From Asparagopsis taxiformis (taxonomy: Eukaryota; Rhodophyta; Florideophyceae; Bonnemaisoniales; Bonnemaisoniaceae), in NCBI GenBank assembly GCA_030407315.1, contig JALQPE010000465.1, positions 1 through 64,000 of the forward strand: DNA of 64,000 nt, given 5' to 3'. Position 1 is the first letter of the stretch. The number at the start of each line of letters is the position of its first letter. Position numbers and translations under genes: made by a program. Shown piece after piece: positions 1-21,356 of the stretch. The notes under the pieces are model-generated. The model was not told the origin of the DNA, made no database searches, and saw only the letters and a list, made by a program, of their open reading frames with translations.

Positions 1-107
1 CTTCGTAGAATTGCAGAAGAGGCAACACGAGCTGCACTACGCTCTGCGTTTACAGGAGTAAAGTTACGGTTTCAACTAACGTAACCATCGTTGAAACAGC
101 CACGGTC

Positions 108-1016
108 TTACCTTCCGCATAATGTCGAATAATGGGGTAGACTTCGCTGAATTTGTTTGTCGTGAACCTTTCTAGCGAAATCGAACAACACGCGATCTTC
201 CTGAAGGTTTGCTGCGTGTTTCGTCGACCCTGTCAGTTTGGCGACAGCGTACAACGTTGTCCATTCTGTCATGTAATTGCGAGCTTTGTCTGGATTGGAC
301 GTGTTCATGATAAAGGAGAAGAGATTAGGAGCTTCGCTTCTGCCTCCTCCTGTAGAAACAGGTCGTTGTCATCCGAATCGGAGTCGTTTGTTGCGGTGAC
401 GTTCTCATGATGGTCGGAAGCAGCGGGATGGCACAGTTTAGGAACTGTCGCAGCAGAAGTGACGGGGTCTCTGCCGGAGGATAGTACAATATCATCGTCG
501 CTAGGAGTAATACAAGCTTTTTGAACTTCTGGAACAATTGTTCCAGAAGTATACTTGAGTATATTGTTCTGCTGCCCACTATTGGCGTACGTCAAAGGGA
601 GGGTGGTATCCACAGAATTGCTCCCAGGTCTGAAGATATCCTGTGAAGACGAAGGAAGGGAGGACTGGATCTGGATCTGGGGTCTGCGAATTGGTAGCTA
701 TGGGAGCATGGGGAGGGTTCGAAGTGCTACCATACTCTGTTGCCGGGCGAGGATGATGGGTTTCTGGTGTATTGCAGTCCATTTCCTGAACGGCAAAAGG
801 ATTTGAGACTGTTCTGGATGTCGAGCGTCTAGTCCGATTGCGGACAGGGGCTACATAGTTGAAACGGAGCCTCGGGCCATTCCTAGACTTTCTCGGTCTA
901 GCCATATCTCGATAACCTGGATTGAGGTAGCACCTAGGTGCAAACAGCTGTTTGGAAGGGAGGGAAACGCTGTACGCCTCTATATTATGAGGATACAAAT
1001 CTCTATAGTCTATCAA
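108..1016 (-). pseudogene. Unrecognised broken coding region
   Basis: Three overlapping open stretches lie on the minus strand (1016-579, 613-305 and 308-108) in different frames, with protein-like composition: a basic patch near the start (MARPRKSRNGPRLR), a Pro/Thr-rich middle and a Ser/Asp-rich acidic end. They could be pieces of one gene joined by frameshifts or short introns. I recognise no domain. The region lies just outside the hairpin-rich repeat block, so it may belong to the same accessory island. The 3' side runs close to the window edge. An untranslated, random origin cannot be excluded. Confidence 0.22.
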
Positions 1017-1210
1017 TCTGTAGAAGAACGAAATTGGAAGGGGAGATCTCAGAGCTGACCGTTACAGTCGTTGCAGAGAACATGTTCTCTATTTCCATGG
1101 AAGCCAGGAAATAGTGCAAAGTACTGATGAGTATACATGAAGACTGAAAACTTAAAAGAATGACATAGCTTTTACCAGAATCGTAATTCATCCAATAGTG
1201 TTTACTTAGC

Positions 1211-1270
1211 AAGAAACACTGTCAAGTAGTGAAGGAGATGCCTCTCCTTCACTACTCGACAGTGTTTCTT
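1211..1270. repeat. Near-perfect 28-bp hairpin
   Basis: Arms 1211-1238 and 1243-1270 are inverted complements with one mismatch and a 4-nt loop (tgcc). The arm begins AAGAAACACTGTC. It is unrelated in sequence to the hairpin family that starts at 1351. It could be two abutting terminal inverted repeats, a small foldback element or a small-RNA precursor. Confidence 0.75.
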
Positions 1271-1350
1271 CCAGCTTCGCAACTGCAGACAGAGCACTCA
1301 GTGCAAACACTATACTCCATGGAGTGGCACGGAGAAGTTCCAGACTAGTC

Positions 1351-1466
1351 TAAAATTTGGTAATTTTTTGGGCTCAAAAATTACTGCAGTAAAACTGATC
1401 TAGCCAAGTGCACTTTGCTAGATCAGTTTTACTGCAGTATTTTGAGCCCAAAAAATTACAAATTTG
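1351..1466. repeat. Palindromic hairpin repeat, copy 1
   Basis: About 116 bp that fold back almost completely. The outer arm is TAAAATTTGGTAATTTTTTG, then GGCTCAAAAATTACTGCAGT and a stem ending CTGATCTAG around a centre AAGTGCACTTTG. Six other copies occur up to 11.8 kb (1753, 2213, 6545, 7083, 11165, 11677). It has the form of a MITE or foldback element with almost no unique centre. The right arm here has lost some bases compared with copies 4 and 6. Confidence 0.8.
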
Positions 1467-1740
1467 TGCCCCACTCGTAGTGACCGTATGGCTCGTACAC
1501 CGCCCTGCTTTGTCTCCCGTCCATATTCCATGAAACACTCACCACCATCGGTCAGCACCACGTGGGCAGCACCTTCTATAGTTCCTTTCAAATACGTTTC
1601 TGGACTGCTGGTGCACAACAGTCTCAATGTACTACGACGAACACCGTCGGAATATTCAGAAACATACATCATTAAAGCATCGAATGCGACGACTAGACGA
1701 AATGTGGAGCAGGAGCGGTGTCCAAATTGGGCAGACGGTC
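1467..1740. repeat. Diverged tandem copy of the 1795-2210 repeat
   Basis: This stretch parallels 1795-2210. Both begin just after a hairpin with GCCCCACTCGTAGTGACCGT, share the block CACGTGGGCAGCACCTTCTA, and end near a shared GGAGCAGGAGCGG motif. The middle is shorter and diverged. It carries no credible gene. Hairpin plus spacer therefore recurs in tandem: copy 1, this block, copy 2, the 1795-2210 block, copy 3. Confidence 0.65.
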
Positions 1741-1752
1741 GCCAGACTAGTC

Positions 1753-1794
1753 TAAATTTGTAATTTTTTTGGGCCCAAAAATTACCAAATTTTA
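1753..1794. repeat. Palindromic hairpin repeat, copy 2 (outer arms only)
   Basis: Only the outer arms of the family remain (TAAATTTGTAATT... and ...ATTACCAAATTTTA), meeting at gggccc. The inner stem with CTGCAG and GATCTAG is absent. The same short form occurs in the inverted partner at 7083-7125, so the deletion predates formation of the inverted repeat pair. Confidence 0.65.
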
Positions 1795-2212
1795 TGCCCC
1801 ACTCGTAGTGACCGTATGGCTCGTACTCCGTCCTACTTTGTACCAGCGACCTTATGCCATGGGACACTCACCACCACGAGTAAGCACCACGTGGGCAGCA
1901 CCTTCTATAGTTCGGTGCAATTATGTTTATCGACTATGGTGCACAACTGTCTGGATGCATCACGATGACTAATGTTCAAGATTGTATGAGGAGAGAAGTA
2001 GACGGACATAGATGCACGTCATGGTAATACCGGTTCGGTTTTGAACAGAGCTGCAATGCGCCGTCAATGTTCGTCAACAACATCCAGCGAAGAAGCGTAG
2101 TTTGGAATGTTTAGAAACATCAGTAAAGCATGGAATGTATGAACTTGACGTAGCCTGGGGCAGGAGCGGTTGTCCAAATCTGGAACAGGTGGGCGCCGGG
2201 TCGTACGTTGTC

Positions 2213-2319
2213 TAAAATTTGGTAATTTTTGCTCAAAAATTGCTGCAGTAAAAATGATCTAGCCAAGTGCACTTGGCTAGACACTGCAGTAATTTTGAGC
2301 CCAAAAAATACCAAATTTC
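2213..2319. repeat. Palindromic hairpin repeat, copy 3
   Basis: Full-type copy with outer TAAAATTTGGTAA arms, CTGCAG stems and a centre CCAAGTGCACTTGG, with small deletions on both arms. It lies on the inner side of the left long inverted repeat, immediately upstream of the ParB-like gene unit. Confidence 0.75.
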
Positions 2320-2329
2320 ACGCCCCTTT

Positions 2330-2844
2330 GTACTCTCTTCACGACTGTTCATTGGGTACTGATTGATTTGAACGCAACCGGTGAGTCTTTTGGCGCGTGG
2401 GCGCGAATTTATTCGCACCCCTTCAGTTAACCTTCCAAACGTTACGTCTACACGATTTCCTGTCACTCTCCTCTGCTACTCATCTACTACTCCTTGTAGT
2501 ACTCCAGCACCTCAAAGGCAATTCAGATCGTGCATCTCCCTGCTTCAGCCCAACTCCCCCTGCTTTCCAAGCTTCGCTCTTCGCATCTCTCTCTGCTTCT
2601 CCCGCTTTGCATCCATCTGTCTCCCCACAGTGACAGTGTCCCATCCCTCTCTCTCTCTTCAATCCTTGCTCTCCCGTGCCTCTCTTTCTCTTCACTCCCT
2701 GCCCTTTTCGTGCCCACTTCACCTCTATACACCGTTCAGAGTTCAAGAGCTTGTTTATCCCACCCACAAACATGTTTCATCGTCAACGCTCTCGTCTCGC
2801 AGCTGCATCTTCCCGCTCCAGCTCGGGAGCTGACAGTCCCCGCG
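2330..2844 (+). promoter_or_regulatory. Leader and promoter region of the ParB/dioxygenase unit
   Basis: About 500 bp with no convincing gene. From 2540 to 2760 the plus strand is strongly pyrimidine-rich (runs of CT and CTCT), the type of leader also seen just before the methyltransferase start (7440-7500) and before 12095. An in-frame open stretch from 2530 is Leu/Ser-rich and looks like translated leader rather than protein. A short alternative frame beginning with ATG at 2771 ends at 2861 and could be a frameshifted true N-terminus. Confidence 0.4.
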
Positions 2845-3225
2845 ATGCCCCGGGCTGGTAGCACGCTTGCGAACTACGAGTTCCGGCAGATGACACTTCC
2901 GATTGCGGACATTCATGTCACGGAAGAAACATCGCGCGAGGTTGATGAGTCGCATGTAGATGTGTTGTTTCAGAAGATGGTTCTTGAAGGCTTTCAGACC
3001 TCTTCCGTGGGCTCCGTGACTGTCGTTGGTCTAGCCCACGAGTCCGACGAAACACGCTTCTACATCGCGGATGGTCTCCATCGTCGTGGCGCTCTTGTCC
3101 GAGCCAAAGCGGAAGGAGTTGAACGTCTGGCTTCTATTGTGGACAGCGTTCCTGTTCAGGAAGCGTTCAGGCCAGATGGACAAGCCATGACGATGGAAGA
3201 CGTGCTCTACCTCAGCAGCGGCTGA
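2845..3225 (+). CDS. ParB-like (ParB/sulfiredoxin fold) domain protein, N-terminal fragment
   Basis: 126 residues from ATG 2845. The order of elements is that of ParB-like domains: a first strand with ADIHV, a helix (VDVLFQKM), then FYIADGLHRRGAL at about residues 72-84, which matches the family signature (hydrophobic-D-G-x-H-R-x-x-A/G). ParB-like domains bind DNA and can hydrolyse NTP or cut DNA, and in phages they often accompany DNA methyltransferases. The frame stops at 3225, but the next frame over carries a natural continuation (QQRLNELVHTVLP), so this is probably the first part of a longer protein cut by a 1-nt frameshift around 3210. An earlier start at 2771 in another frame is possible. 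Confidence 0.6.
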   Translation: MPRAGSTLANYEFRQMTLPIADIHVTEETSREVDESHVDVLFQKMVLEGFQTSSVGSVTVVGLAHESDETRFYIADGLHRRGALVRAKAEGVERLASIVDSVPVQEAFRPDGQAMTMEDVLYLSSG

Positions 3226-4460
3226 ACGAACTGGTGCACACGGTTTTACCGACCACCATCCGCGACCGTATTCATGCTATCATCAGCATATACAACTGCA
3301 ACAACTGCAACTTGAAGTACGCGAAGGAAGGGGAAAGGAAACTCTCCAGTATGACAGCTTCGCAGCTGTGCAACTGGTTCTTCCAGCGTCACTTCAGTGG
3401 CATACTCAGGAAGAGTACGGTGACGTCTATCGTCAATGTGGCTCTGAACATGAGACGTTCACCACGCACGTACGAGGCGTACAAGATGGCCTCTGGTAGG
3501 AAGGAAAATGAGGTTGGAATCAGCCTTCTAGTGCTGAAGGACACCGCGTTCACAAAGGCTGAGGACCGTGCCAGTGAGCTGATGGTTAGGTGCATTCACT
3601 ACCGCTCTGTGAAATTGCTCCAGTCCTTTGGTCGCATCCCAGGTCTCCAGCTCAGGGTGTATCTCAATTACATCAGAGATTTCTACCTGGTAATCCGTGA
3701 AGTCGCACCCAAGGTTGGGATGACTACGGACGAGCTGGCAGACCTGGAGGACCTCGAACCGGATGGAACGGACATGATCCCGACCTGGAAATCCGTGTTC
3801 AAGCGCATGGTTCAATATGAAGAAGAACCTGTGCCGAAACAGGAGAAGAACCACGAGCGTCGCCGAGAAGATTTCCGAACCGTCATCCTGCAACGTTTCA
3901 ACATTGCACCGGATCGTGAGACTCCGCCCCCTCCTCCCGGAGCATCTGGCGATGCAGTGCTTGCCACTGCGGCCAGTCAAGGCGCAAAAGATGTGGGGAA
4001 GGAGAGCGAGAAAGCGGCAGAGAGCGTTCCTGCTCCTGCCCCTGTGGCATCAGCCACTCCTCCGAAGTCACCATCACAGGTGACTCGGCAGGCTCGCTCT
4101 CCGACCCAATTCGGGGAGAATATCATGGAACCTCTCCCCGTTCCCCTTCCCTCACAACCCCTTCCTGAGGACGAAATCAATCCGATGGACAGTTCTCCTC
4201 CTGACTCCCAAGCCAAGCCGGACTCAACAGCCCGGGCCCCTTCCCCCTCCAAACCCAACTCTCCCCCTCCCCTTCCCCTCACAACCCGACTCACCCCCCC
4301 CGCTCCCCCATGGCCGTCTCCCCACCCACGTCTGCTCCTGTTCCCGACTCTGCTATCGCCACGGAACAGCAGAACCCCGAAACCTCGGTTGAAGCTTCTC
4401 AACCGCAGGGGGTGGTGGGGGGACAGTAGTTTCACGCTCTGTGCGCATTCCGCCCGATGA
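3213..4460 (+). pseudogene. Continuation of the ParB-like protein (helical region and Pro-rich linker)
   Basis: Open from before 3213 with no ATG at its head; residues QQRLNELVHTVLP fit on directly after the ParB-like domain. A helical segment of about 200 residues (RKLSSMTASQLCNWFFQRH, then KMASGRKENE and IHYRSVKLLQSFG) could be the helix-turn-helix part that follows many ParB domains; I cannot confirm it. From about 3915 it becomes a Pro/Ser/Ala-rich linker. After the C8 run near 4294 the sensible protein moves to another frame (MAVSPPTSAPVPD from 4312), so the last 50 residues of this frame are probably spurious. Homopolymer indels point to decay or sequence error. Confidence 0.45.
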
Positions 4461-6283
4461 AACTACGCCACGCCCCTTTCCCTGCTCGCTTGGATCACAC
4501 TGTCGCTTCCCCGGCTATGCCGCTGTGCACAAATAGCACAGCGTGCAACATTCAGCCAGTACACAACCTGTGCGACTATCCTCGAGTATATCACCTCATC
4601 CCCATCAAGTACCTCAACAACGGTGAGCGAGACATGGTGTTCGTCTGCTCCCGTGAGTGCTACGATGGCCGTCAACCGGATGACCCCCCTTCTTGGACCC
4701 CTCCTGCAGGGGTCACGTTACAAGAAGCGTGGGAAGGTGATGCGTACAATCCTTTCGAAAAGGACGCGTCCTCTACCGAGTCTGCTGAAGAAAAGGATAA
4801 GCAGACCGGTGAGGCTCCGCGGAGTACGATGGGAGGGAAGGCGCCCATATCCCGGGAACCAGCCAAGAAAACTGCCTCTGGAACACCGCGGCGGGGAGAA
4901 AAGAGGAGGAGAGAGCCGACCACTCCTCCTCCGACTCGGATGACTCGGTCCAAGACCAGAAGTGCCGCTATCGCAGAGCAACTCATCGCTCTCGGTAGCC
5001 CGTCTTCTCCCCCTGTCTCCCTTCCGCTTCCTGCACAGCCACCCTCATCTGGCGAAAAGGAGCGTGAAGGTGAGATAGAAGACGGCGAAACCCCTACAAA
5101 GACGAAGGTGACTTCCAAGGGGTTTCGGGTACACAGGTATGAGGACGAGCAGCCACCGCCACCTTCCTTTCTCACGGAGCAGACCACGCTTGCCCAAGCT
5201 GCTACGTTCGTGCGTTCAATTTCGGGTCTGCTCCATCCTGAACACCGCTCTGGGTTCATCATGACGAGTGGGGAGGTGGAGGAGATCAGGGAGGATATCA
5301 ACTCCGCGGCTGGTGGTACATCCGAGGAGAGGATTGTTTATTGGGAGCGGGCAAGGGCTAGTATTGATTTCGATGGATACATCGTCCTCGAAGACATACT
5401 AGGAGCTTCCGATGTACGGTCTGCAATCCACGAACTGCTCTCTGGGTTTGCCCAAAAGTTCGATGACAATGTGGAAGGGGCGTGGGGCACGATTCTGAAC
5501 TCCGGTTCAGCTGCCCAGGATGCCCGGGGTGGCGCGTCTCGCCAGCGGTACATGACCCCCCGCTCGGCTGTCATTGAAGACCTCGACGGGGAGGAATCCA
5601 TGTCGCTGGCTCATGACAAGGTTTCCGTGGATGTCATCCTCGCAATTATAGCGGAAATGTTGCACTTGGAGGATTCCGTTTCATCTTTGAACGGATTCAA
5701 GAAAGGCTCCAAGCTGCGCTTTGGGAGGACAGGACTTCGGATGCTCCTGACGGGTTCCAACTGTACTCGTCAGATCCCGCATCTCGACTTCACGTACCCA
5801 GGACCGCCACGCGAGGAACCGAACCGCTATTGTGGGACCCCTGCACCAGACCCAGACTATTCTTTCATAGCTACTGGTGCAGTTGGGTCCCCAATTCTGG
5901 TACGACCGCGGAGTCATGCCTTCCTCAACGCCCCTCGTGATGCCTTCCTGGCTATCTGGCCCCATCTCCATCCAAAATTGGTTTGGATTCCACCCTTCTC
6001 TGTTCTCGTGACTCGTGGTGACGTAGAGCACGCTGGTGCGGGATGGCAGGATTACGACTTCGTGAAGGACAAAATTTCTAAGACTGGAGTACAATACGGT
6101 CATCACATTCGAGTCCATAGCATGGCTGTACGTGATTCTTCCGAGCTAGTCAATGATCTCGTCTACGCACCGGTGCAGAGTGACGACCCCAATCGTCTGC
6201 CGAAACCTTACGAGTTCGCACACGACTTTGAGTCGGACGATGAGGTACCGGATAGTAGTGAAGATTACATCACAGTTGAGTAG
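4457..6283 (+). CDS. 2-oxoglutarate/Fe(II) dioxygenase-like protein with N-terminal Cys-rich finger
   Basis: 608 residues from ATG 4457, overlapping the end of the previous frame. Near the start is a Cys/His cluster (CNIQPVHNLC, then VFVCSREC); a frame-shifted stretch at about 4425-4525 supplies more of it (CSLGSHCRFPGYAAVH), so the finger spans a break. Residues 90-230 are charged and low complexity with basic patches (RRGEKRRR). The C-terminal half has the double-stranded beta-helix order: PHLDF with an HxD pair at H442/D444, GAVGSPILVRPRSH, then TRGDVEHAGAGW with distal H525 and IRVH with R552, fitting Fe(II) and 2-oxoglutarate ligands of phytanoyl-type dioxygenases. The substrate is unknown; a modified DNA base or protein is possible given the neighbours. 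It was probably one protein with the ParB-like part upstream. Confidence 0.6.
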   Translation: MKLRHAPFPARLDHTVASPAMPLCTNSTACNIQPVHNLCDYPRVYHLIPIKYLNNGERDMVFVCSRECYDGRQPDDPPSWTPPAGVTLQEAWEGDAYNPFEKDASSTESAEEKDKQTGEAPRSTMGGKAPISREPAKKTASGTPRRGEKRRREPTTPPPTRMTRSKTRSAAIAEQLIALGSPSSPPVSLPLPAQPPSSGEKEREGEIEDGETPTKTKVTSKGFRVHRYEDEQPPPPSFLTEQTTLAQAATFVRSISGLLHPEHRSGFIMTSGEVEEIREDINSAAGGTSEERIVYWERARASIDFDGYIVLEDILGASDVRSAIHELLSGFAQKFDDNVEGAWGTILNSGSAAQDARGGASRQRYMTPRSAVIEDLDGEESMSLAHDKVSVDVILAIIAEMLHLEDSVSSLNGFKKGSKLRFGRTGLRMLLTGSNCTRQIPHLDFTYPGPPREEPNRYCGTPAPDPDYSFIATGAVGSPILVRPRSHAFLNAPRDAFLAIWPHLHPKLVWIPPFSVLVTRGDVEHAGAGWQDYDFVKDKISKTGVQYGHHIRVHSMAVRDSSELVNDLVYAPVQSDDPNRLPKPYEFAHDFESDDEVPDSSEDYITVE

Positions 6284-6544
6284 GTAGGATTTCACCTATA
6301 GGTTGCTCTCAACTAAAGTTTCTATTGTTTTCTTAATGTTCCTCCATTGCTTCACCTGTAGCATAGTATACTATATACTAACAGTATACTCTTCCCCATT
6401 GCTTACTGACAACTTGTGACATTCTGTGATCTACGATATTGTTTTCCTCTCAACCCAGACTAACGAGTGCGTATCCATGAGCTAAGAGCGCTCCCGACCT
6501 CAGCAGTACCTCTACTTTGTCTTTTCCAGCTGCTATTCAGGTCC
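6284..6544. other. 3' flank of the dioxygenase gene
   Basis: 260 bp between the stop codon and hairpin copy 4. It is AT-rich with a small inverted motif around AGTATACTATATACTAACAGTATACT (6364-6389, given as a position with key halves AGTATACT). I see no coding potential; it probably holds the polyadenylation region. Confidence 0.35.
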
Positions 6545-6665
6545 TAAAATTTGGTAATTTTTTGGGCTCAAAAATTACTGCAGCAAAACTGATCTAGCCA
6601 AGTGCACTTTGCTAGATCAGTTTTTACTGCAGTAATTTTTGAGCCCAAAAAATTACCAAATTTTA
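6545..6665. repeat. Palindromic hairpin repeat, copy 4
   Basis: A nearly complete copy with arms TAAAATTTGGTAATTTTTTG...AAATTACCAAATTTTA, CTGCAG in both stems, GATCTAG near the centre and loop CCAAGTGCACTTTG. It marks the inner edge of the right long inverted repeat, just downstream of the dioxygenase gene. Confidence 0.8.
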
Positions 6666-7082
6666 GACCCATCCGGCGCCCACCTGTTCCAGATTTGGAC
6701 AACCGCTCCTGCCCCAGGCTACGTCAAGTTCATACATTCCATGCTTTACTGATGTTTCTAAACATTCCAAATACTACGCTTCTTCGCTGGATGGTCGTTG
6801 ACGAACATTGACGGCGCATTGCAGCTCTGTTCAAAACCGAACCGGTATTACCATGACGTGCATCTATGTCCGTCTACTTCTCTCCTCATACAATCTTGAA
6901 GATTTAGTCATCGTGATGCATCCAGACAGTTGTGCACCAATAGTCGATAAACATAATTGCACCGAACTATAGAAGGTGCTGCCCACGTCGTGCTTACTCG
7001 TGGTGGTGAGTGTCCCATGGCATAAGGTCGCTGGTACAAAGTAGGACGGAGTACGAGCCATACGGTCACTACGAGTGGGGCA

Positions 7083-7125
7083 TAAAATTTGGTAATTTTT
7101 GAGCCCAAAAAATTACCAAATTTTA
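7083..7125. repeat. Palindromic hairpin repeat, copy 5 (outer arms only)
   Basis: Short form without the CTGCAG stem, mirror of copy 2. It lies near the outer end of the right long inverted repeat and is the last repeat before the methyltransferase-SET gene. Confidence 0.65.
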
Positions 7126-7146
7126 GACTAGTCTGGCGACCGTCTG

Positions 7147-7502
7147 TAGCTAATGGGGCTTGAATTTAGGTGCAGTGTCTCTGTATTATTAGTGAAGCTA
7201 GCTCAAGGTTGTGGAGATTTTGTTTAATGCACTGTCATGATACAGAATGCGCCCAAGCTGCATACCCGTTCAAAACATTGCACCCCTTCACCAATCTTCA
7301 ACAACAAAACTCCAAACTCTTTCATCATCCCGCGACCCCTCGTCAGAAATCGGGGCTTCCATAAATTCCAATTTCAAATTTTGCGGGCGCGCGGAAAAAT
7401 CTCCTTGCCGTCCTGTCAGGCACATGTGCCGGATTGCATTGCAATCTTCTCTACCAATCTATCGCATTCTCTCTTCTCCCTCGTTCCCGAGCATCCCCTG
7501 AA
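7147..7502 (+). promoter_or_regulatory. Upstream region of the methyltransferase-SET gene
   Basis: About 355 bp without a credible gene. A TATA-like CCATAAATT lies near 7359, and a pyrimidine-rich leader (CTTCTC, TTCTCTCTTCTCCCTCG) runs to the ATG at 7503. This matches the leader type seen before the ParB unit. Confidence 0.35.
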
Positions 7503-10500
7503 ATGGCGCAGCCACAACCCCGGCACGGGCTTGTCGAAACGTACAGCGAAGATGGGCCGATGCATCCATCTGACAAGTACGGAAACGGAACCATTCTATG
7601 GGTTGATCCCGCTCGCGTTGTTTCAATTCCTGCTATCGCAGGGGCTAGCACCCCAGCCTCCGATGTCACATCCGTAGTGCATCTGGATTTCGAACGTCTC
7701 TATCTGTACGGTAGCATTGCGGACAATGGTGACGTAACCTTGGTGGGAGGCATGGACGTGTGCGAGGAGGTGTGGTCGCGCCCCCGACGGAACACATCGA
7801 GATATTTACTTCGCATGAGCTACGAATCTATTACTACCAAACCACATACGCTTGCCTCTATTCTCTTTCATCTCCTGGAGAGGGAAAGGATTATTCCGTT
7901 CTACGAAAGTGTAGCAATAGTCGCTCACATGCGAGACTGTTGGCATGAAGCTGAGAAGAAAGAGGATCATGTGCCCCTTGCAGAACGTTCGCTCACAGCG
8001 TTTCGAAGGGCTGTGAGCAGTATGTACAAGTTTGACCTGCCAGCGAATGCTTCAATCGTTCTGGATAAATGGTTCTCGTATGCCTACCATCGTCACACCT
8101 TTAACATTGTGCAAGCAGTCCGAAACTTCACCATTTCTGCTGGTGAAGATGGTAGTGTAGATATAGACACACGGGTATGGGATCTATTCCTCACGAGCTG
8201 TGGGTTGCTGGATTTATCCGTATCCTTCTTTATTCCCGTGTTTGTCCATGAGCGTGATGAGCAATCAGCAGAGGATCCACTCAAAAACTCTCAGAGTCCT
8301 GGACCACCACTTCCAGTTCAGAAAGAGTTCTACACCGAGCATAACTTCTCCCAGTCCGCGATTGGTCGAGATGCCTTCTCAAGACAATCACTAGCATGCC
8401 AATTCTTCGTTTCACAGACCCAGGAGCGCGCTTCGCATCAAGATAGCTGGACAACTCCGAGACTTACCACAACTTTCGAGAGGGTTGTATTTCTCATGGC
8501 ATTGATACAAATGGACCGAGACTGGAAGTTGCAGGCAGAATCCCGGCCACGCTCACGTACAAGAACGAGGTCTTCGAATAGACCCACGCCGCTTCTCAAG
8601 AAGGATAGTCCGTGGACTGCCCAGCGTCTTGGATATGGTATTCATGTGATTCTGAAGTCATGGGATGTATTGGCAAAGTCGCTAGGGGCTACCAATACCG
8701 AGGAGCTCTTGCAACCGTACCTTCTGTACGACCAGAGAGTATTCACGTACCACGTCCTGGACTCGGAAAATAGGGGCTTCGCACCGCTTCGAGAGCTGAA
8801 GACTTTGTTGCACGGCAGAGGAGCTGTTCGAAGAGTGCAGCACTCGGCAAGCATCTCGAGTGCGGCTGTCCATCGTACGCTGCTGCAAGATGCTCAGATG
8901 CGCCTCTGCGCAACGTCCTTCTGGGAGCACATAATGACGATCTGTCGGCACAAAGAATTGTTCGACCAAACCGTTTCTTCACCGCGAGCAATACCTTTCC
9001 TACAGGGCTTCCAGGCGTCGACTGGTTCCCCGGATGCTGGGAGGTTTACGACTATTCGGGCTCTGGGTATGGTTGAAAGGCAACTCACGGCATTCAGCCT
9101 CACAGAAGAGCCACAATCAACGCCCGACCCTAATGAGGAGCTGTTCGGAGACACTGAGAGAACAGCTTCTCCAGTACGGGATTCTCCGCCCGGCGGGAAC
9201 GGAACGAGCCCGAATGCTAAACGCAGACGACTAGATGAAAGCCCTTCTGGTGCAGGAAGCTCGAGCAGGAATAGCGGTAACAGCGGTACCGCCGAAGCGG
9301 CCAGAGCTGATATAAAATCCATGCGTGCAGAAGATGAAGTGTTGATTCCTCCAGAAATGGACAACATGAAAGGATCTGTCCTGCATACTTTCAACTGCAG
9401 CTTCAGAGACCTTTTGAAGAACTATGACGCTGTTGACAATCCTCGAAAGCCGCAAATCCGGGAAGGTGCTCAGTTGGTACTCACTGACCCGCCGTACAAT
9501 ACTAGGCGTATGTCTGGCAGAGGAAACTCTGGTTACGATGTCCTCCGTCAGGAAGAAATCGAAGACACGGTAGCTGAAATTTCCAAGGTGACGCGCAAGG
9601 GTGGTCATGTTCTCATATTCACATCTGCTGCTCTGTTCTACAATTGGGTATACGAGCTTCGCAAAGTGAAATACTCTACGGGTAGTCCTATGTTCGCGGT
9701 TGATTCGCAGCCTATCGTCTGTACTCGGAGCCCCACCCATTTTACTTCGCCTCCATATAGGATTACAACCAGTTTGTTAAATATGGTCGAGCTGGTTGTA
9801 CATGCTACGAAGCTGGGTAAGGGTAAAGAAGGCTGGGGGATGGTGAACTACCGAAATGCAGGATACATCCCTTCTAGGTTCAAGGCTTGGACAAATGTCA
9901 TCGACAACATCCCGCGCATCACAGCATCGGAGACAGTGAAATATTTGGACAAGGACAAGAAAAAGGTTACGTTGCGCCCCGAGCAGAAGACCGTAGCTCT
10001 CATGCAAGAGCTCATTGGACGTTTCTCAAACCAGGGAGACTTGGTCGTGGACATGTTTGCTGGCACTTTCTCTACTGCAGTTGCATGCCTTACTATGCAC
10101 CACGGTCAGTACAGGAGGTTTGTGGGGTGTGAGAAGTTCACGGACTGCTTTGAACTATCCCTTCCTAGAGTCAATCTTGCATTTCTGCAGCAGGTCTCCA
10201 TTGGGAACTTTGCTCAACAGTCCACGCCCGCCCTGCAGCAGCTGGCCACTTCTCAACTCGGAACTTCCGATGACGATTCCCACTCGAAGAACCCCTCCAG
10301 TTTACCAAGTTCGACACAACTTCCACCCCACCTCATCAGCTTTCTGACCGCCATTTGGTGCATCCCAGACCAGCACAATGACTTGATAGACCTTCCTATT
10401 CACAAATGGCCACAATCACTGCTGGGCTTGTTGTCCACCATGGATAGTAAAACCCTGCTATCAATTGATGCAATGGCACACAATGTATACGTTGCAACTT

Positions 10501-10976
10501 CAACTATACCTGCAGCTGGTGATGGACTCTTCGCAAGAGTAGATATTGATCCAGGAGATATCGTCGGGTACTATTTTGGGGCAGTGGTTTACAAGGATCT
10601 CTACCAAGCAAAACTGAAGACGTTTGGTACGGGTCCGACTTCGTTCTCGATTGAGCGCTTCCAGAAGTACGCAGTTCAAATCAAGGACCCAAATATCACC
10701 TGCTTGCTTCCGTCTACGTCTGGCCGCCCCATCTTCATTGTTCCATTCGAGTATTGCGCTGCTTCGAAAATCAACGACCCAACGTTCGTGGATCCAGCAG
10801 AGGGAACCGATCGCCCGTCGCGAACTGCTAATGTTAGTTTCTCCTCCCCTGTACAAGAACTCATCAGTGAGAGCTCTGTGTCTAGCTACCAAGTTGTATG
10901 TGTTACTGCTAACGAGGCTATCTCAGCTGGATCCGAGCTGTTTATCGAATACGGTCATGATTACTTCACTGTCTAG
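7503..10976 (+). CDS. DNA methyltransferase (DPPY type, beta-class order) fused to a C-terminal SET domain
   Basis: 1157 residues from ATG 7503 (context CTGAAATGGCG; the frame is open a little further upstream but without ATG). Residues 1-580 are unrecognised and mostly helical. A basic NKRRRLDE-like patch (about 577-583) could be a nuclear signal. The methyltransferase has VLTDPPYNT with D662-PPY665 as catalytic motif IV, then, downstream, DMFAGTFSTA at 850-859 as AdoMet-binding motif I. Motif IV before motif I is the permuted beta-class order of N6-adenine/N4-cytosine enzymes. Residues about 1000-1157 form a SET domain: AGDGLFARVDIDPGDIVGYY, then KINDP, NVSF and a closing GSELFIEYGHDY. SET domains methylate lysines. 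The gene is intact while its upstream neighbour is broken. Both domains probably act in the nucleus on chromatin; targets are unknown. Confidence 0.75.
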   Translation: MAQPQPRHGLVETYSEDGPMHPSDKYGNGTILWVDPARVVSIPAIAGASTPASDVTSVVHLDFERLYLYGSIADNGDVTLVGGMDVCEEVWSRPRRNTSRYLLRMSYESITTKPHTLASILFHLLERERIIPFYESVAIVAHMRDCWHEAEKKEDHVPLAERSLTAFRRAVSSMYKFDLPANASIVLDKWFSYAYHRHTFNIVQAVRNFTISAGEDGSVDIDTRVWDLFLTSCGLLDLSVSFFIPVFVHERDEQSAEDPLKNSQSPGPPLPVQKEFYTEHNFSQSAIGRDAFSRQSLACQFFVSQTQERASHQDSWTTPRLTTTFERVVFLMALIQMDRDWKLQAESRPRSRTRTRSSNRPTPLLKKDSPWTAQRLGYGIHVILKSWDVLAKSLGATNTEELLQPYLLYDQRVFTYHVLDSENRGFAPLRELKTLLHGRGAVRRVQHSASISSAAVHRTLLQDAQMRLCATSFWEHIMTICRHKELFDQTVSSPRAIPFLQGFQASTGSPDAGRFTTIRALGMVERQLTAFSLTEEPQSTPDPNEELFGDTERTASPVRDSPPGGNGTSPNAKRRRLDESPSGAGSSSRNSGNSGTAEAARADIKSMRAEDEVLIPPEMDNMKGSVLHTFNCSFRDLLKNYDAVDNPRKPQIREGAQLVLTDPPYNTRRMSGRGNSGYDVLRQEEIEDTVAEISKVTRKGGHVLIFTSAALFYNWVYELRKVKYSTGSPMFAVDSQPIVCTRSPTHFTSPPYRITTSLLNMVELVVHATKLGKGKEGWGMVNYRNAGYIPSRFKAWTNVIDNIPRITASETVKYLDKDKKKVTLRPEQKTVALMQELIGRFSNQGDLVVDMFAGTFSTAVACLTMHHGQYRRFVGCEKFTDCFELSLPRVNLAFLQQVSIGNFAQQSTPALQQLATSQLGTSDDDSHSKNPSSLPSSTQLPPHLISFLTAIWCIPDQHNDLIDLPIHKWPQSLLGLLSTMDSKTLLSIDAMAHNVYVATSTIPAAGDGLFARVDIDPGDIVGYYFGAVVYKDLYQAKLKTFGTGPTSFSIERFQKYAVQIKDPNITCLLPSTSGRPIFIVPFEYCAASKINDPTFVDPAEGTDRPSRTANVSFSSPVQELISESSVSSYQVVCVTANEAISAGSELFIEYGHDYFTV

Positions 10977-11164
10977 CTGTTACCCTCTCACAGTCAAATT
11001 TCACAAGTAAATCCTCTCCATTAATGTTTTCACTCTGTTTCCCATACCTTCAATTTATTTTTATCGTAATGTACTCTTTCCCCCCAAGCAAGCAATGCGT
11101 AGAAGAATTTCCCGTTTGGTACGTAATGCGTCTGCATAAGGTTGGACAAGGTATATTCTGTGCG

Positions 11165-11286
11165 TAAAATTTGGTAATTTTTTGGGCTCAAAAATTACTG
11201 CAGTAAAAACTGATCTACCCGAGTGCACTTTGCTAGATCAGTTTTTACTGCAGTAATTTTAGAGCCCAAAAAATTACCAAATTTTA
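11165..11286. repeat. Palindromic hairpin repeat, copy 6
   Basis: The best preserved copy; the foldback even includes the flanking GCG/CGC. It lies 190 bp downstream of the methyltransferase-SET stop codon, so that gene, like the dioxygenase unit, sits between two hairpins. Confidence 0.8.
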
Positions 11287-12094
11287 CGCTGCCTTGTATG
11301 TGTTCTGGCATAGCCACGGGCACCACACAACCCTACATGGCATGTCGAAGGCTGAGGTTTGGATACCAGCCGTTCTTAGTTGTTTGCCTTGTTCCACATG
11401 CGGACGGTCTCCGCTTGTTTTTCAGCACAATGACAATGTAGAGAGAAATGCAGGTACCACAACTGTCTTGTACATTGTACATCCATTCTCGCATTTCGTA
11501 CATCATGCATGTACCACACGCAGGAAAAGCTGCTCAATGTACATTCTATGTGGTATGAAGTTTAACGCTTCTATAATTATAGCGTTAACGCTCCTAGCAA
11601 CAAAACAGCCCGGAAGAACAAACTGAGCCGTGGTCATCTACATAGTCAGCTAGTGCTGCTTACATAGTGCTGAGATTAAATTTCGGTAATTTTTCTAGCT
11701 ATGAAATTACTGCAGTAAAAACTGATCTACCTATGTGCACTTGGGTAGATCACTCTTTACTGCAGCAATTTCAGCGCAAAAAAGATTACCAATTTCCTTG
11801 CCCCGAATATACCTTAGCCTACGTTCTGCAAACACATAGAGATGTAACCAAAATAACTTCTCTGGCTGATTGCATTGCTGGCTCCATTGCTTTTGGGTAT
11901 GCCCAGGACCGTTACTGCCCGCAGCTTTTGTAACGGCCGTACCAATGTCCTTATCCGTTACATCTTCCGTCCATGCTCGAGACAAGTTTCCCCCTGGTCT
12001 CTTCTACTTATCCTTCCCTTCTCCTCAGCAACGTTTCCAGTTCTACTCAAGTACTCTATCCTGGGCGTGAACCATTCAACGGTTTCCAGCAAAA
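11287..12094. other. Intergenic region with degenerate hairpin copy 7
   Basis: No credible gene. A degenerate family member lies at about 11677-11796 (TTAAATTTCGGTAATTTTTC..., CTGCAGTAAAAACTGATCTA, with a different loop). A short inverted motif AACGCT...AGCGTT lies near 11562-11585. The last 90 bp are pyrimidine-rich and lead to ATG 12095. Confidence 0.45.
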
Positions 12095-13768
12095 ATGAGA
12101 GATGATTTATCTTTGACTAGGTTTGCAAAGTTCGAAGAACGGTTCGCATCCCTCGAACAGTACATGCGCGATTCCCTTTCGTCTATTCAATTGGAGCTGG
12201 CGTGTATTCGATACATGGCCTCCGCTGCTGCCGGAACAAACACTGTCCCTTCAGTTGTTCTGGATGAGAGATCAAGAAAAGCAGGTCAAATTGCCACGCT
12301 GGTGTCTTCTCTGTTCAACAACAGGCAGGTGACATCTCGATTCGTCGCTTTCAGAACTGTTGCAGAGCTTGTTAAAACCTTTGTTGACGCCAATTTGCTC
12401 AACAATTGTAATTCGAGGTCTGCAACATCACCACAGGTGGATTCCTGCACAACGTTGCTTCTTGCTGCCCTGTCGTTTTCGCAGACTTCAAGTTCAAATT
12501 CTGAGGTAAGGCAATCTAAGAGATCTCTTATCGGAACGGCAGTAGGGAAACGACATGTGTTCTTAAAACGCTCTATTATCGGAACTGCGTTTATTTCAAT
12601 GGCAAATGACAGAATTGTGCGATGGAAGGACTCGACGAGCAGGAATGCTGGGGTCCTCGATCCTGGGGAGGAGGAGGACTTGAACAGCAATACTCTATCT
12701 CGAGACTATGCACTACGCAATGCTACAGTAGTGCCCATCGAAAAGCCGTCTTGGCTGCACATTTCCCAACGAGCTCTTTTCCATGCCATGGATATTTCGA
12801 TGCCCACGGAGGCAGAACGAAACGTGGAACAGTCTACGCATTTGCAGGTTACTCTTTCAAAGCGTCGCCGACTGTCTGGTTCGAAAGAAGCACGCCGTAC
12901 TGGTACATCCTCTTCATCTTCTTCCGCTGTATCCAACCTTTCTCCGTCTGACTTACAGTCTATTCCGATTATTACCTCTGCACTACGGCAGCTTACACAG
13001 TTCTTCAACACTTCCCGGAAACAGATGAAAATGGAATTGGTCAAACAAGCATTCTTCCTCATCCACCGAGATATGAAGGCAACTGTGGATGTTTCTCCTG
13101 CCCATGCTGTTTCCACAACAGAAATGTGTCCACCTGACTCTATTCCGACAACTTCGAGAGCTTACGGAACAGGAGAAGAAGCTCTCGAAGTGTATTCAAA
13201 AAATGATTCCATCTTCTCAAATTTCATTCTGAGCCGTCCTGAGCTTCACATTCAGGTTACTTACATAGTTCAGGTGAGCGGTGATATCGATGGTGAAAAC
13301 ATTGCGAGTACGCGAGTGGAGAAGTTGGCTGTCTGTTCATTCTCCTTTCTTACTCTAGCTATGATATTGTTATGCAGTTTTTGCCAATGTACACAACTGG
13401 AGATGCTCTGTCATGAACCTCATGCTATTCAAGCATGTTATAAGATTGCAATATGCCTCCAAGGTTTATTTAACGAAGCCCTGAAACAACAGCCTACATC
13501 TCATTTTGGGAAGGATGGATTCCCCTTGCGCGTTACATGGGGACATCTTGAGCTCCGGGACTACCTCATGGGAGGTGACTGCCTCACGGGGATCATTAGA
13601 AAGAAGAGAAACCTAACAGCACAAGAATACGAGTCTGTCCGTTTCGTTTCAGGCTTCAGACATACTGAGCGCTCAGAAGATAACCCAGCAAACAGACCAG
13701 TTTCCAATCATGATTGTGTACCTCTCGAGGAGGATGATGAACTTGGTATTTCTTTAATTGGCATGTAG
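12095..13768 (+). CDS. Hypothetical nuclear-type protein of unknown function
   Basis: 557 residues from ATG 12095. The N-terminus is a likely coiled coil (FEERFASLEQYMRDSLSSIQ). A basic cluster LSKRRRLSGSKEARR and a Ser run lie near the middle. The C-terminus has an ordered-looking block (LCHEPHAIQACYKIA, WGHLELRDYL, YESVRFVSGFRHTER) and an acidic tail. A hydrophobic stretch around 13274-13402 starts GTGAGC and can end at ACTGGAG; it is 129 nt long, so it may be a retained-frame intron rather than protein. The gene converges on the next gene with 126 bp between stops. I recognise no family. It may belong to the accessory island or be host sequence. Confidence 0.5.
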   Translation: MRDDLSLTRFAKFEERFASLEQYMRDSLSSIQLELACIRYMASAAAGTNTVPSVVLDERSRKAGQIATLVSSLFNNRQVTSRFVAFRTVAELVKTFVDANLLNNCNSRSATSPQVDSCTTLLLAALSFSQTSSSNSEVRQSKRSLIGTAVGKRHVFLKRSIIGTAFISMANDRIVRWKDSTSRNAGVLDPGEEEDLNSNTLSRDYALRNATVVPIEKPSWLHISQRALFHAMDISMPTEAERNVEQSTHLQVTLSKRRRLSGSKEARRTGTSSSSSSAVSNLSPSDLQSIPIITSALRQLTQFFNTSRKQMKMELVKQAFFLIHRDMKATVDVSPAHAVSTTEMCPPDSIPTTSRAYGTGEEALEVYSKNDSIFSNFILSRPELHIQVTYIVQVSGDIDGENIASTRVEKLAVCSFSFLTLAMILLCSFCQCTQLEMLCHEPHAIQACYKIAICLQGLFNEALKQQPTSHFGKDGFPLRVTWGHLELRDYLMGGDCLTGIIRKKRNLTAQEYESVRFVSGFRHTERSEDNPANRPVSNHDCVPLEEDDELGISLIGM

Positions 13769-13894
13769 AACTGTTCTAGCTGGAACACCGCCGTCTTCAT
13801 GTGACTGTAGTAGTTCCCATTGCTTGCCTCTGCTCCGCAATGTATGCTTCAGAATAATTAAACTAGTTCTTCCATGTTCATCTCACTACCTGTA

Positions 13895-15589
13895 TCATTT
13901 TATGTACTCCTCTGCCCTTTTCTCTGACACACTATACCCCACCACATCATTGACCACATCTTCCGATATTAACTTGCCTATTCTACATGGTTCTTCCACA
14001 CCACGGAATATGACATACGGCATATGCACTCTCAATGTTCCCCACAACATGTCACCAGCCCTTCCTCTTTTCCTTTGCGTCGTAGGTTCCCATTCAATGC
14101 GGAAACATTTCTTTCTTTCGCTTCTCCACCCTTCTAGACTCCCGTCACCATCGAACCCCCCGTGCACGCCACATATCGAGGGACATTCCTGCAGCTCCAT
14201 TCCGTTCACATATTCACCTTGGACTACAGCACTACCGTTGCGAGCCAGACACCATACGTTCGATTTAGATCCGGCAATGCAGAACGAGCTACTGCCAATT
14301 GCAACAGATGTCGACTGTGCTTCCATCGTTTCCGAGCACAATATCGTACCAAACAACCGCAGAGCACATGGCCTCGCTGTTCCGTTCATGTCACCACACT
14401 CTTCATTCTCCTCCCCTTCCGAGTTGCTTATGTTACGCCTATGAACCAGAGACTCAGTTCGCCATCTGTGCCCCAATCCTAGCAGATCCGATAGTGTGGA
14501 AAAACTGGAACACGTAATGTTCACAGCTTCTCCGCCATTTCCAGCCACTGCCGCGTGAAGCCCTGGGTACACTTTGTAATACCCCCCTCGATAGGTTTCT
14601 GCTGTTCCCTTTAGCATTTCCCGGAATAGCTCAGTGCTCAATGAGATTGGAATCTGGACAGGTCCGCTAATAGCCGTTCCACTCGTGCATGCACCGTCAA
14701 TCTCACCATGTGGGTAGCCACCCCCTGGGGTTGACAAAGTGCTTCGATTAACCTGTTCCACAACTTTCTCTACCGCACGCTGCAAGAGCATTAACAAAAT
14801 CTTACCAGCCGATACTGTTGATGCACAATTTAGAACCCTTTCGTTCCAACCAAGCCGAATCTCGCTAGCATTTCCAGAAAGCATTATATTTTCTAGTGTT
14901 CTCAGCCTTGTCTCCATACCACTGTATGTTTTGACGTCAAGTGCTGATTCCACTTTTGGCTTCTTCCTCTGCGGTGATATCGCTTCAGATTCTCCATCTG
15001 ATTGGTCATGACATTCTACTCTCTCCGCTTCGTAATCCACAGCCTCTCCATTGCTCGTTCGCCACGGTGTCGGGGGCTGGCCCCCCGACATCAACTTATT
15101 TCCGAGCAGAAACTTTACGTTTTCGTAGGCGACACAAGGATAATTCATTTCAGGAATAGCATCGTATAACAATCTGCCTTCTGCCACTGCCATTTCATTA
15201 TGACTCGGCTTCACAGCGTTCGAATGCCGCCACGTAGTGACTTCCAAGACTGATATCTCCTTTTCCTCCCTCGTCAACCTCACGATTGCATCATCCACAT
15301 CCTTTCCATTCTGCTCCACCACACCAGGCGTGTACATTCCATCTCCTCTGTCTACGTCGATGCGGTCTCCCACTGACGGCTTACCACTGCAGACAGGATA
15401 CTGCTCAGGAAGTTTCATTTCCACAACCGTAGCCTTCCACCATATTGCGTCATCGCCAACTTGGAACCATACGTCTATTTCCGTTCCGACACATGGGAGT
15501 GCATCTACGGCAGCTGCCCGCTCACGCTCACGACCAGCTTTCGCTTTTTCGCTCTGTCGCCTAATTCGCAATGATTCACGCCTCGTCAT
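13895..15589 (-). CDS. Hypothetical protein with N-terminal Tudor/SH3-like folds
   Basis: 564 residues from ATG 15589. After a basic head (TRRESLRIRRQSEKAKAGR), two short beta-barrel-like stretches follow: GTEIDVWFQVGDDAIWWKA with TVVEM, and VGDRIDVDRGDGMYTPGVV with AIVRL. Their length and aromatic spacing resemble tandem Tudor or Agenet modules, which read methylated proteins. A nuclear-type signal QRKKPKVE lies near residue 210, followed by a short coiled coil (METRLRTLENIML). The rest is unrecognised. If the Tudor reading is right, a methyl-lysine reader lies about 3 kb from a SET-domain writer, but no shared promoter or repeat ties them. Confidence 0.5.
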   Translation of the reverse strand: MTRRESLRIRRQSEKAKAGRERERAAAVDALPCVGTEIDVWFQVGDDAIWWKATVVEMKLPEQYPVCSGKPSVGDRIDVDRGDGMYTPGVVEQNGKDVDDAIVRLTREEKEISVLEVTTWRHSNAVKPSHNEMAVAEGRLLYDAIPEMNYPCVAYENVKFLLGNKLMSGGQPPTPWRTSNGEAVDYEAERVECHDQSDGESEAISPQRKKPKVESALDVKTYSGMETRLRTLENIMLSGNASEIRLGWNERVLNCASTVSAGKILLMLLQRAVEKVVEQVNRSTLSTPGGGYPHGEIDGACTSGTAISGPVQIPISLSTELFREMLKGTAETYRGGYYKVYPGLHAAVAGNGGEAVNITCSSFSTLSDLLGLGHRWRTESLVHRRNISNSEGEENEECGDMNGTARPCALRLFGTILCSETMEAQSTSVAIGSSSFCIAGSKSNVWCLARNGSAVVQGEYVNGMELQECPSICGVHGGFDGDGSLEGWRSERKKCFRIEWEPTTQRKRGRAGDMLWGTLRVHMPYVIFRGVEEPCRIGKLISEDVVNDVVGYSVSEKRAEEYIK

Positions 15590-16589
15590 AGTTCCTCCAC
15601 GAAATAAAGATACTACAACGCACTATCTGCAATTTTGTTTAGGACAAGTCTTCGTCGACTTCTTCACTAGATACTACTTCACCCATGTCTGTAACGTCAA
15701 ATTTTTCATTTTTATCGTATGATACGAAATCACTACCTTGTTCCCTACTGCCGCACAAATCCACTAATACTGCGTTTAAGATACTAGTAACGCTTAAAGC
15801 CAGGGTGGAACTCACTATTCAGGTCAATCTTGTGTATGCGGGAGTGACTTTATTACAAAATTTTGCGACTTCGACAGTAACTATGCCGTAGTATCTGTGC
15901 TAAAAATCAACATAGATGGTGCCATTCTTTACTAAGTAATACTACAGAAACTAAACTCAAGTACAATTATCTACTCTTTCGACCGTACCCTACCTATGGT
16001 AGAACAATGACCATAACGAGATTAGCTAGTTCACGTCATACACTCTGTATCTCGCCTCTTTCATATGATTCTGCATGGAAGTCCAAAACGTGACGTCATC
16101 GAAGCGTATGGCGCGTTGGAACAGTCAGTACCACTCCATCCCTCTACCATCACTACATTGCTACGACTACCACCAGTACCTCAGACCGGCGTGACCATCA
16201 ATGTTCATGGTTCGAGTCCAACATGGTACTGTCATACATATGGTTCCCTCGTTTCGTGATTCCAGCAAGTAAATTCTAAAAATAATGGAATATGCCACCT
16301 CCGGTCACCGTCATGACCAACGCGACGTGTCTTTGTCCTTTCCAATGTTATTTTTCCGTACAGTAGTGGAAAATTCCACCATGTCACGGTGCTTATACCC
16401 ACTCCCACGGCGCAGTTTCATTCCATTACATTCTTTACGGTATTTCCACTACTTATCTATGGCACGGCGCCGGTAATTTCTGCGATTTTTTATGGTTTGC
16501 CATTCCACTAATTTCTAATGGTCCAGACCATAAAATTTACTGGTTTTTCAAAAAATTGCTTATCCTGTGTACGTTCAGCATCCCCTTTT
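15590..16589. other. Intergenic region, nothing recognised
   Basis: 1 kb of AT-rich sequence with only short, shadow-like open frames. It includes the promoter of the minus-strand gene starting at 15589. From about 16590 the retroelement remnant begins; no 5' LTR or upstream pol domain is visible here. Confidence 0.35.
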
Positions 16590-17189
16590 CCATTTCCGAC
16601 ATTCTACATTCCGATTTCTCCGAGTCGTCGAATATTGCTACAAACAAATTCATTGAAGAAATTCAAGAAGCAAATCGCCTTGCTCAAGAATCTATTCGCC
16701 AATCCAACATTACCACATCTGGTCATGTGAACCAAAATCGAGAAGATATTCAATTTGAAGTGGGCCATCTCGTGATGTTCTCAACAAGAAATCTTCCTCT
16801 CCGACGAGGAAGAACCAAAAAAGTTCTCACCGAAATACATCGGTCCCTTTACAATCACCGAGAAGTTAGCATCTGGACGTGCGTATCGTCTAGAGCTTCC
16901 CATTGAATATAAGCATATTCATCCTACTTTCAACATTTCACTTCTGAAGAAATTCCGTGAAGATTATTCCGCACGTGAGGCTTCGGTAGATACACGTTTT
17001 GCAATTTCTCATGAGAAGAAAGCCGCAATAGAGAAGATACTTGCACATCGGATCCGAAACTCCGAAGTACAGTTTTTAGTGAGTTTTCGAGACCCAAGTC
17101 CAATCGAGAACACATGGGTCAACAAACAAGAAGTCGACGATCAGCAGGAAATAATCGAGTATTTCAAGAACCTTTTCGAGGACGGATAA
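16590..17189 (+). pseudogene. Ty3/gypsy integrase C-terminus with chromodomain (chromovirus remnant)
   Basis: The frame EANRLAQESIRQSN ... VGHLVMFSTRNLPL is the typical C-terminal end of gypsy integrase. After the A6 run at 16817-16822 the reading continues in another frame (KFSPKYIGPFTI, then HIHPTFNISLLKKF), so there is a 1-nt frameshift. The protein ends with a chromodomain-like block (EKILAHRIR, EVQFLVSF, ENTWVNKQEV) and stops at 17189. Chromodomains on integrases steer insertion to marked chromatin. Gag, protease, RT, RNase H and the integrase core are missing upstream, so this is a 5'-truncated, dead copy. Confidence 0.8.
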
Positions 17190-17195
17190 GGATCT

Positions 17196-17208
17196 AAAAG
17201 GGGAAGAG
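17196..17208 (+). other. Polypurine tract of the chromovirus
   Basis: AAAAGGGGAAGAG lies 7 bp after the integrase stop and directly before a TGTAACG start. This is the expected place of the plus-strand primer of an LTR element. Confidence 0.65.
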
Positions 17209-17209
17209 T

Positions 17210-17586
17210 TGTAACGTCCATCTGGATGATCCAGTCGGATCAGTTCCATTATGGAATTTACAATACGCTAGGATAGTTTACACTACGCAATTACACACCT
17301 TATTAGAATGACTAAGTTCCATAATAGTTTACATTACACTAGCTATAGTAGTCTTGATCGTAAGGTGCGAATAGAAGCTAAATTTGCACCTTACTCTGCG
17401 AGTCCATGAAATTACTATCGCTAGGCTAGTGTAGTGGTTTTAGTAGTCTACGAGCTAATCTAGAATTCTATAAAGGAGGTACTGGAATGGCTGCTGGAAG
17501 AGTTCGGGCAGATCAACAAACCCAGTAACAACAATTCCTAAGTTGATCCGAAATAAGCGCCGCTTAGTGAACCTCAAAATTTTACA
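17210..17586 (+). repeat. Putative 3' LTR of the chromovirus
   Basis: It begins TGTAACGTCC right after the polypurine tract and may end TTTTACA at about 17586, giving a TGT...ACA element of about 377 bp. A TATA-like CTATAAAGG lies near 17470. No second copy is in the window, so the 3' limit is a guess. Confidence 0.5.
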
Positions 17587-21334: not shown

Positions 21335-21356
21335 CCCTTCGCGCTGTGTTCCTTGA

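Follow-up and report, generated by a model that had tools for sequence, protein, structure and literature searches.

A ~22-kb, probably CACTA-like transposon of the red alga Asparagopsis taxiformis carrying a predicted methyltransferase-SET fusion gene

DIRS retrotransposons carry a Dam-like adenine methyltransferase. Among the DNA transposons of fungi, EnSpm, Plavaka, Kyakuja, Zisupton, and others bear TET/JBP genes, and the same source also describes SET genes in the HarbingerS and MuDR elements of Phytophthora, discussed together with TET/JBP as counters to silencing (Kojima 2025, PMC12730594). Here we describe a DNA transposon of ~22 kb in the red alga Asparagopsis taxiformis, two genes of which encode, respectively, a protein with ParB-like and dioxygenase-like motifs (gene 1) and an amino-methyltransferase fused to a SET domain (gene 2). 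Its right-hand three quarters occupy positions 1..16569 of the window, i.e., the first 64 kb (64,000 nucleotides) of contig JALQPE010000465.1 (C465), to which all coordinates refer unless a contig or locus is named; genome searches covered the 141.5-Mb assembly of 3156 contigs. The original prediction, made from the letters of the window, was of a mobile cassette at 1732..11286 that contained these two gene units.

As in DIRS, a bacterial-type amino-methyltransferase gene is found in a eukaryotic mobile element, but DIRS has a reverse transcriptase and a tyrosine recombinase, neither of which was matched among the element open reading frames (ORFs) scanned, and assignment to DIRS was dropped on these grounds. 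The likeness to the TET/JBP-carrying fungal transposons lies in a DNA transposon having a DNA-mark enzyme as cargo, and some of those lineages, in the parts of the source covered, are likewise CACTA-like, with CAC..GTG ends and short target site duplications (TSDs); unlike them, the writer of the algal element is an amino-methyltransferase fused to SET, its dioxygenase-like gene has no TET/JBP match, and its host is a red alga. A histone-methyltransferase gene on a DNA transposon is shared with HarbingerS and MuDR of Phytophthora, but these belong to other superfamilies, and the same parts of that source do not describe their SET as joined to a DNA methyltransferase (PMC12730594). N4CMT of bdelloid rotifers is also a bacterial-type amino-methyltransferase working in a eukaryote, but is not known as transposon cargo, as far as the sections covered describe it (PMC8885841). 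No transposon with a DNA amino-methyltransferase and SET in one polypeptide was found in the literature (open-licence papers searched), which agrees with the earlier statement that no element with this gene set had been described. The element extends a known theme of DNA transposons with epigenetic cargo, of which a TET/JBP eraser or a SET gene were already known.

Both gene units are parts of this ~22-kb transposon, which overruns the borders originally given at both ends, the repeated unit continuing to 16569. Complete copies with paired ends are found at C2494:20080-42019 (21,940 bp) and C2263:93690-115750 (22,061 bp), which have a common insertion site. When window 11000-24000 was searched (949 first-look candidates), 19 of the 23 scored places ended at 16567-16575, i.e., within nine bases, and four ended earlier; on the 5' side, three copies (L039, L045, and L046) diverge at a common point that precedes the first window base by 5.6-5.7 kb. 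The element start is not in the window because the window begins at the contig edge, and the left 5.6-5.7 kb therefore lie beyond it. Narrower borders, around gene 1 alone or genes 1 and 2 together, are wrong, as copies continue past them; in a test that covered plus-strand gene-2 loci, 18 of the 30 loci match as far as the end of the piece used, at ~12,400. Reading the element ends directly gave terminal inverted repeats of 14 bp, CACAGGATAAGCAA at the 5' end and TTGCTTATCCTGTG at the 3' end, the latter at 16556..16569 (+) according to the end reads of copies. Target duplications of 2 bp were present at all three independent sites for which both flanks were read, involving four copies: GT at the site common to C2494 and C2263, CT in C2066, and CT in C644. 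In C2066 and C644 the paired ends are separated by 30-32 kb, and the extra length is taken as insertions.

The exact 30 bases of the 5' terminus occur 115 times in the genome vs 0 for a reversed control, a repetition far above chance. Twenty-seven 3' flanks were sequenced (that of C543 being assessed by eye rather than by script) and fall into 21 clusters, corresponding to 20-21 insertion sites, as C2078 and C2079 look like one. Copies thus occupy different loci, and together with exact borders, terminal inverted repeats, 2-bp TSDs, and a transposase-like gene they bear out the prediction of a mobile eukaryotic element. Segmental duplication of a single locus was dropped as an explanation because the flanks of the copies differ. 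Five of the flank clusters comprise two or more copies, in one case a pair on a single contig (C215a/b); common flanks among copies point to haplotype, assembly, or segmental duplication. In two contigs (C730:15623/16194 and C86:15045/15616), a pair of 5' ends is arranged head to head with ~540 bp between them, and the sameness of the arrangement suggests that these contigs are haplotigs.

Queries with positions 2000-4000, 7700-10900, and 4400-6300 each returned 40 scored places with long matches of 95-100% identity (of 522, 246, and 165 first-look candidates, respectively). Among the matches listed, 27 of the 40 gene-2 places are preceded, at a distance of 1.3-2.0 kb and in the same orientation, by a gene-1 place; for the other 13, no gene-1 place is among those listed, and three of them (C2342, C1615, and C2943) still hold gene-1 DNA. 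Among the best 30 gene-2 copies (of the 40 scored), six, that of the window included, do not differ over 3474 nt, the others are at least 99.2% alike, and the full frame is kept in 19 by a strict test. Judged by its near-identical dispersed copies, the transposon was probably active recently.

The transposase-like gene runs leftward from an ATG at 905; its N-terminal part (1..905, -) is in the window, frameshifted near 580-697, and the remainder lies outside (e.g., at L046:4690-7998). In L046 the ORF is 1102 aa, with its 5' side open. It is 27.6% identical (E 1e-62) to the 717-aa transposase-like ORF at L039:1031-3184 (-), which adjoins a copy and probably belongs to another element. Common to both ORFs are the blocks DYPA...PCHxC (PCHLC here) and FExxHQ.KRG (FE..HQQMKR), which we take to resemble those of CACTA TNP2. 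The CMCT clade (CACTA/EnSpm, Plavaka, and kin) is described, in the parts of the source covered, as having 5'-CA..TG-3' termini, CAC..GTG in the case of EnSpm, TSDs of 2-5 bp, and a transposase of the DDE type that contains the motifs C(2)C and H(3-4)H (PMC12730594). The termini CACAGGATAAGCAA...TTGCTTATCCTGTG and the 2-bp TSD agree with this description; fungal EnSpm families are given a TSD of 3 bp in the same sections (PMC12730594). Inspection of the transposase-like ORF by eye did not reveal the H(3-4)H spacing. Overall, the element very probably belongs with the CACTA/EnSpm-like (CMCT) transposons.

Gene 2 (7503..10976, +) encodes 1157 aa, in which an N-terminus is followed by an amino-methyltransferase (residues 657-878, with DPPY) and then a SET domain (residues 1006-1151). 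Both domains score over the curated Pfam cut-offs: PF01555 (N6_N4_Mtase) at E 9.3e-14 and 52.3 bits vs 26.7, and PF00856 (SET) at E 1.6e-5 and 25.7 bits vs 22.4, the SET domain being matched in eight of ten gene-2 family members at E <= 0.1. The predicted fusion of a DPPY methyltransferase to SET is therefore upheld, as is, at the domain level, the pairing of a DNA writer and a histone writer, which reside in one polypeptide. In amino-methyltransferases of the beta class, motif IV (DPPY) precedes motif I. The gene 2 enzyme is assigned to that class because DPPY (662-665) precedes DMFAGT (850-855), and DPPY suggests adenine as the putative target base, with N4-cytosine also possible. Neighbours among solved sequences include DpnA, MboIIA, and CcrM for the methyltransferase part and SETD7 and KMT5A for the SET part. 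Ten related proteins were found, one of them labelled Pyropia vietnamensis: P0002 (100% identity), P0004 (74% over 65% of the length), P0003 (65%, 99% cover), and seven at 28-37%; P0005 covers 97% of gene 2 at 29% identity.

The N-termini of P0005 and P0006 contain IRDGAHR, a ParB-like signature; the gene 2 N-terminus aligns there, and the signature is eroded in the window protein. Three phage proteins from IMG/VR (L056, L058, and L059) similarly combine, in a single chain, a ParB_N-type stretch and, after it, a DPPY methyltransferase, ParB_N being over cut-off in L059 and below it in L056 and L058; they differ in having no SET, in being ~450-480 aa, and in that the algal N-termini are without a match to the ParB_N hidden Markov model. 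PF02195 (ParB_N) gave no match in gene 1, gene 2, P0005, or P0006. Comparison by hhalign with the three phage ParB-methyltransferases gave 2.0% and 0.5%, which are not significant, and comparison between the two algal N-termini gave 15.7% (E 0.0017 for that single comparison) and 1.4%. A scan of viral contigs with gene 2 found seven loci, all matching within residues 654-892, i.e., the methyltransferase part, and the 15 rows listed of 104 phage records match P0005 only over 688-925. The proposed link to phage modification modules thus holds for the methyltransferase part.

Gene 1 (2772..6283, +) would encode, by its motifs, a ParB-like N-terminus, a helical part, a Cys/His-rich stretch, and a 2-oxoglutarate-dioxygenase-like C-terminus. 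It is a real gene unit. Of the six further copies retrieved, five have it as a single open frame, which in L050 encodes 1179 aa counted from the ATG. The two homologues identified are P0001 (55% identity, 95% cover) and P0012 (40% identity, the alignment covering the C-terminal part), and all three proteins retain DGLHRR, the Cys/His stretch, H1013, R1123, and the motif RGDxEH, whose last residue is H1096. The short motifs of the original prediction, including H-x-D...H...R, are accordingly present in gene 1, but no part was recognised with any weight in Pfam, NCBIfam, or the PDB. There was no Pfam match to Tet_JBP at an E limit of 10, at which HMMER filters drop most matches above ~0.1. Rows judged to be chance were those for nitric oxide synthase (E 0.11 or worse), Baculo_ME53 on the Cys-rich piece (E 0.008, 15.8 bits vs a cut-off of 25), and the weak rows from ParB-directed Pfam and PDB searches. 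The structure prediction called for earlier was uninformative: AlphaFold gave a mean predicted local distance difference test score (pLDDT) of 32 for the full-length protein, three sequences being used, and a pLDDT of 33 for the C-terminal 369 aa, confirming neither fold. As no search or model recognised these folds, the ParB and dioxygenase labels of gene 1 are leads and not results.

Five palindromic hairpins of 108-134 bp with the centre GTGCAC lie between the genes in the window: between the transposase-like gene and gene 1 (1348..1466), upstream (2212..2319) and downstream (6541..6669) of gene 1, downstream of gene 2 (11159..11292), and upstream of gene 3 (11674..11798). A sixth is between the element 5' end and the transposase-like gene. 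Gene 1 is also enclosed by an inverted repeat of ~600 bp, the left arm of which (1732..2318, +) is 94% identical to the right arm (6547..7146, -), and the hairpin repeats reported to flank both gene units were found again. The exact 21 bases of a hairpin half-arm occur 444 times in the genome vs ~115 termini, with up to eight in one copy (C134), which suggests that the hairpins belong to the element; among the first 100 half-arm places listed, a few contigs (C11, C75, C79, C303, and C512) are not tied to it. Independent miniature inverted-repeat transposable elements were dropped as an explanation of the hairpins on account of the half-arm counts per element copy.

Methyltransferases of this kind are not confined to the element. 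In the genome search with PF01555, 150 of 2605 first-look candidates were scored, and all 150 exceeded the cut-off, in several score groups; their frames reach ~1200 aa, with one of 1410, and none is at the 40 scored gene-2 places. Some could be bacterial contaminants. Likewise, 150 of 1661 candidates for PF00856 were scored and all exceeded the cut-off, ten at 50 bits or more, which look cellular, and 140 at 33-36 bits. Among the matches listed, six of the 33-36-bit SET matches share, by eye, an open frame with a methyltransferase 0.4-0.5 kb upstream, and two more adjoin a methyltransferase whose frame is broken. Families of 1186, 1106, and 943 aa are among the methyltransferases, and that of 1186 aa has SET-like sequence in frame downstream (L087); besides the family of gene 2, at least two methyltransferase families are fused to SET. 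Because of L087 and the further fused frames, the methyltransferase-SET fusion appears to be a wide feature of this genome.

We take the locus to be a large, recently active cut-and-paste CACTA-like transposon whose cargo would write marks on its own copies, and we put the probability of this reading at roughly 55%. The transposase-like gene would move the element, and gene 2 would act at the element on two substrates, methylating a histone lysine and, in DNA, adenine (or cytosine-N4); each copy would then carry its own mark and might stay expressed or recognisable despite host silencing. Gene 1 would be a partner recognising element DNA, with a dioxygenase-like end that may remove or modify marks, and the intergenic hairpins may either mark transcript ends or be parS-like sites at which the ParB-like parts bind or load. 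An anti-silencing or self-marking role of the cargo is proposed because of the analogy to TET-carrying fungal transposons and to the SET-carrying HarbingerS and MuDR, and we hold it tentatively, at a little under even odds. If active, the fusion protein would couple DNA and histone methylation in a direct physical manner and be a source of N6-methyladenine (6mA) or N4-methylcytosine (4mC) in a red alga, the element writing its own chromatin. A wider proposal is that red-algal transposons run their own two-layer system, with a fused writer of DNA (6mA/4mC) and histone marks, a further protein, its ParB-like part related to that of the writer, that edits or erases them, and several families having adopted such fused writers. 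This is doubtful, but if it is true, much of the alga's repeat chromatin could bear marks from parasite-coded, not host-coded, enzymes.

Several observations weigh against the reading of a recently active, self-marking transposon. The copy number is partly redundant, as C2494/C2263, C215a/b, and others have common flanks, and 11 of the 30 gene-2 copies fail the strict full-frame test. The 30 copies contain 143 distinct substitutions, of which 97 are non-synonymous (68% vs 74% expected without constraint); this is barely below expectation, and selection on single copies is therefore weak. Gene 1 of the window copy is broken by a frameshift. Its ParB and dioxygenase folds are unconfirmed by Pfam, the PDB, profile comparison, or AlphaFold, and the Asp of HxD (D1015) is present in two of the three homologues and lost in P0012; the predicted oxidiser of marks and the ParB identity were accordingly not borne out beyond short motifs. 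The only Pfam match to ParB_N in the genome is elsewhere, in a 290-aa frame (G000:C1526:7582-7839), on a contig that is possibly a bacterial contaminant. Finally, the transposase-like ORF matches nothing in Pfam, NCBIfam, or the PDB.

Dam methylation restrains or times the transposition of bacterial Tn10. The same enzymes of gene 2 could similarly be a copy-number brake or timing switch acting on the element's own termini or promoters, SET being repressive and the element silencing itself, and the hairpins and inverted repeats between the genes would offer fixed target sites; strong self-restraint, however, sits poorly with a recent burst, as seen in the six gene-2 copies (of 30) that do not differ at any of 3474 nt, and we regard a brake as unlikely. 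That gene 2 travels within the element argues against a cargo directed at rival transposons or at the host, whether in competition or in defence of the alga, and kept through conflict between elements. No restriction enzyme or immunity partner was recognised among the element genes either, of which genes 1, 3, and 4 are largely unrecognised, so that, despite the several further methyltransferase families over cut-off, some SET-fused, such a role seems improbable.

Weak selection among young copies and the broken gene 1 of the window would fit a decayed passenger, captured once and without present function. Near-full-length homologues at 65% (gene 2, P0003) and 55% (gene 1, P0001), conserved motifs, and open frames in 19/30 (gene 2) and 5/6 (gene 1) copies make this quite improbable. 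An endogenous virus, or an element derived from one, is very improbable indeed: bacterial/phage-type methyltransferases and SET genes do occur in viruses, and the solved sequences matched by gene 2 include a SET protein of PBCV-1 (E 0.009), but the element has 14-bp termini with 2-bp duplications and a transposase-like gene, neither a capsid nor a polymerase was matched among the element ORFs scanned, and a two-pattern scan plus tblastn found no gene-1 relative on viral contigs.

The remaining genes of the element are gene 3 (12095..13768, +; ~557 aa), which is inside the conserved repeat, has no Pfam match at E <= 0.01, and shows a single weaker one (E 0.055) that falls well short of the cut-off, and the convergent gene 4 (13895..15589, -; 564 aa), an ORF with no match in Pfam or the PDB. 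Outside the element, the window contains a DDE_1 transposase ORF of 507 aa (17996-19519, -) and an inverted duplication (23216-38026 / 44071-58873) with 14.8-kb arms that are 99.88% identical, which may be a genuine palindrome or may have arisen in assembly. The arms carry an SNF2-type gene, a polyA-polymerase-head gene, and a reverse transcriptase element; at 34127-36285 (inverted copy 45812-47962), a reverse transcriptase ORF (PF00078) adjoins an ORF that matches phage integrase below the cut-off, and the pair is perhaps a DIRS-like element. Thirteen phycobilisome matches were found in the assembly, 11 of them on one plastid-like contig, in keeping with a red-algal host. The Asparagopsis bromoform contig (mbb locus) is described, in the sections of the source covered, as bearing two DNA-methyltransferase genes, SSDM and ASDM (PMC12115072). 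These may belong to elements like the ~22-kb transposon; such elements may also lie near the bromoform locus, which is of practical interest.

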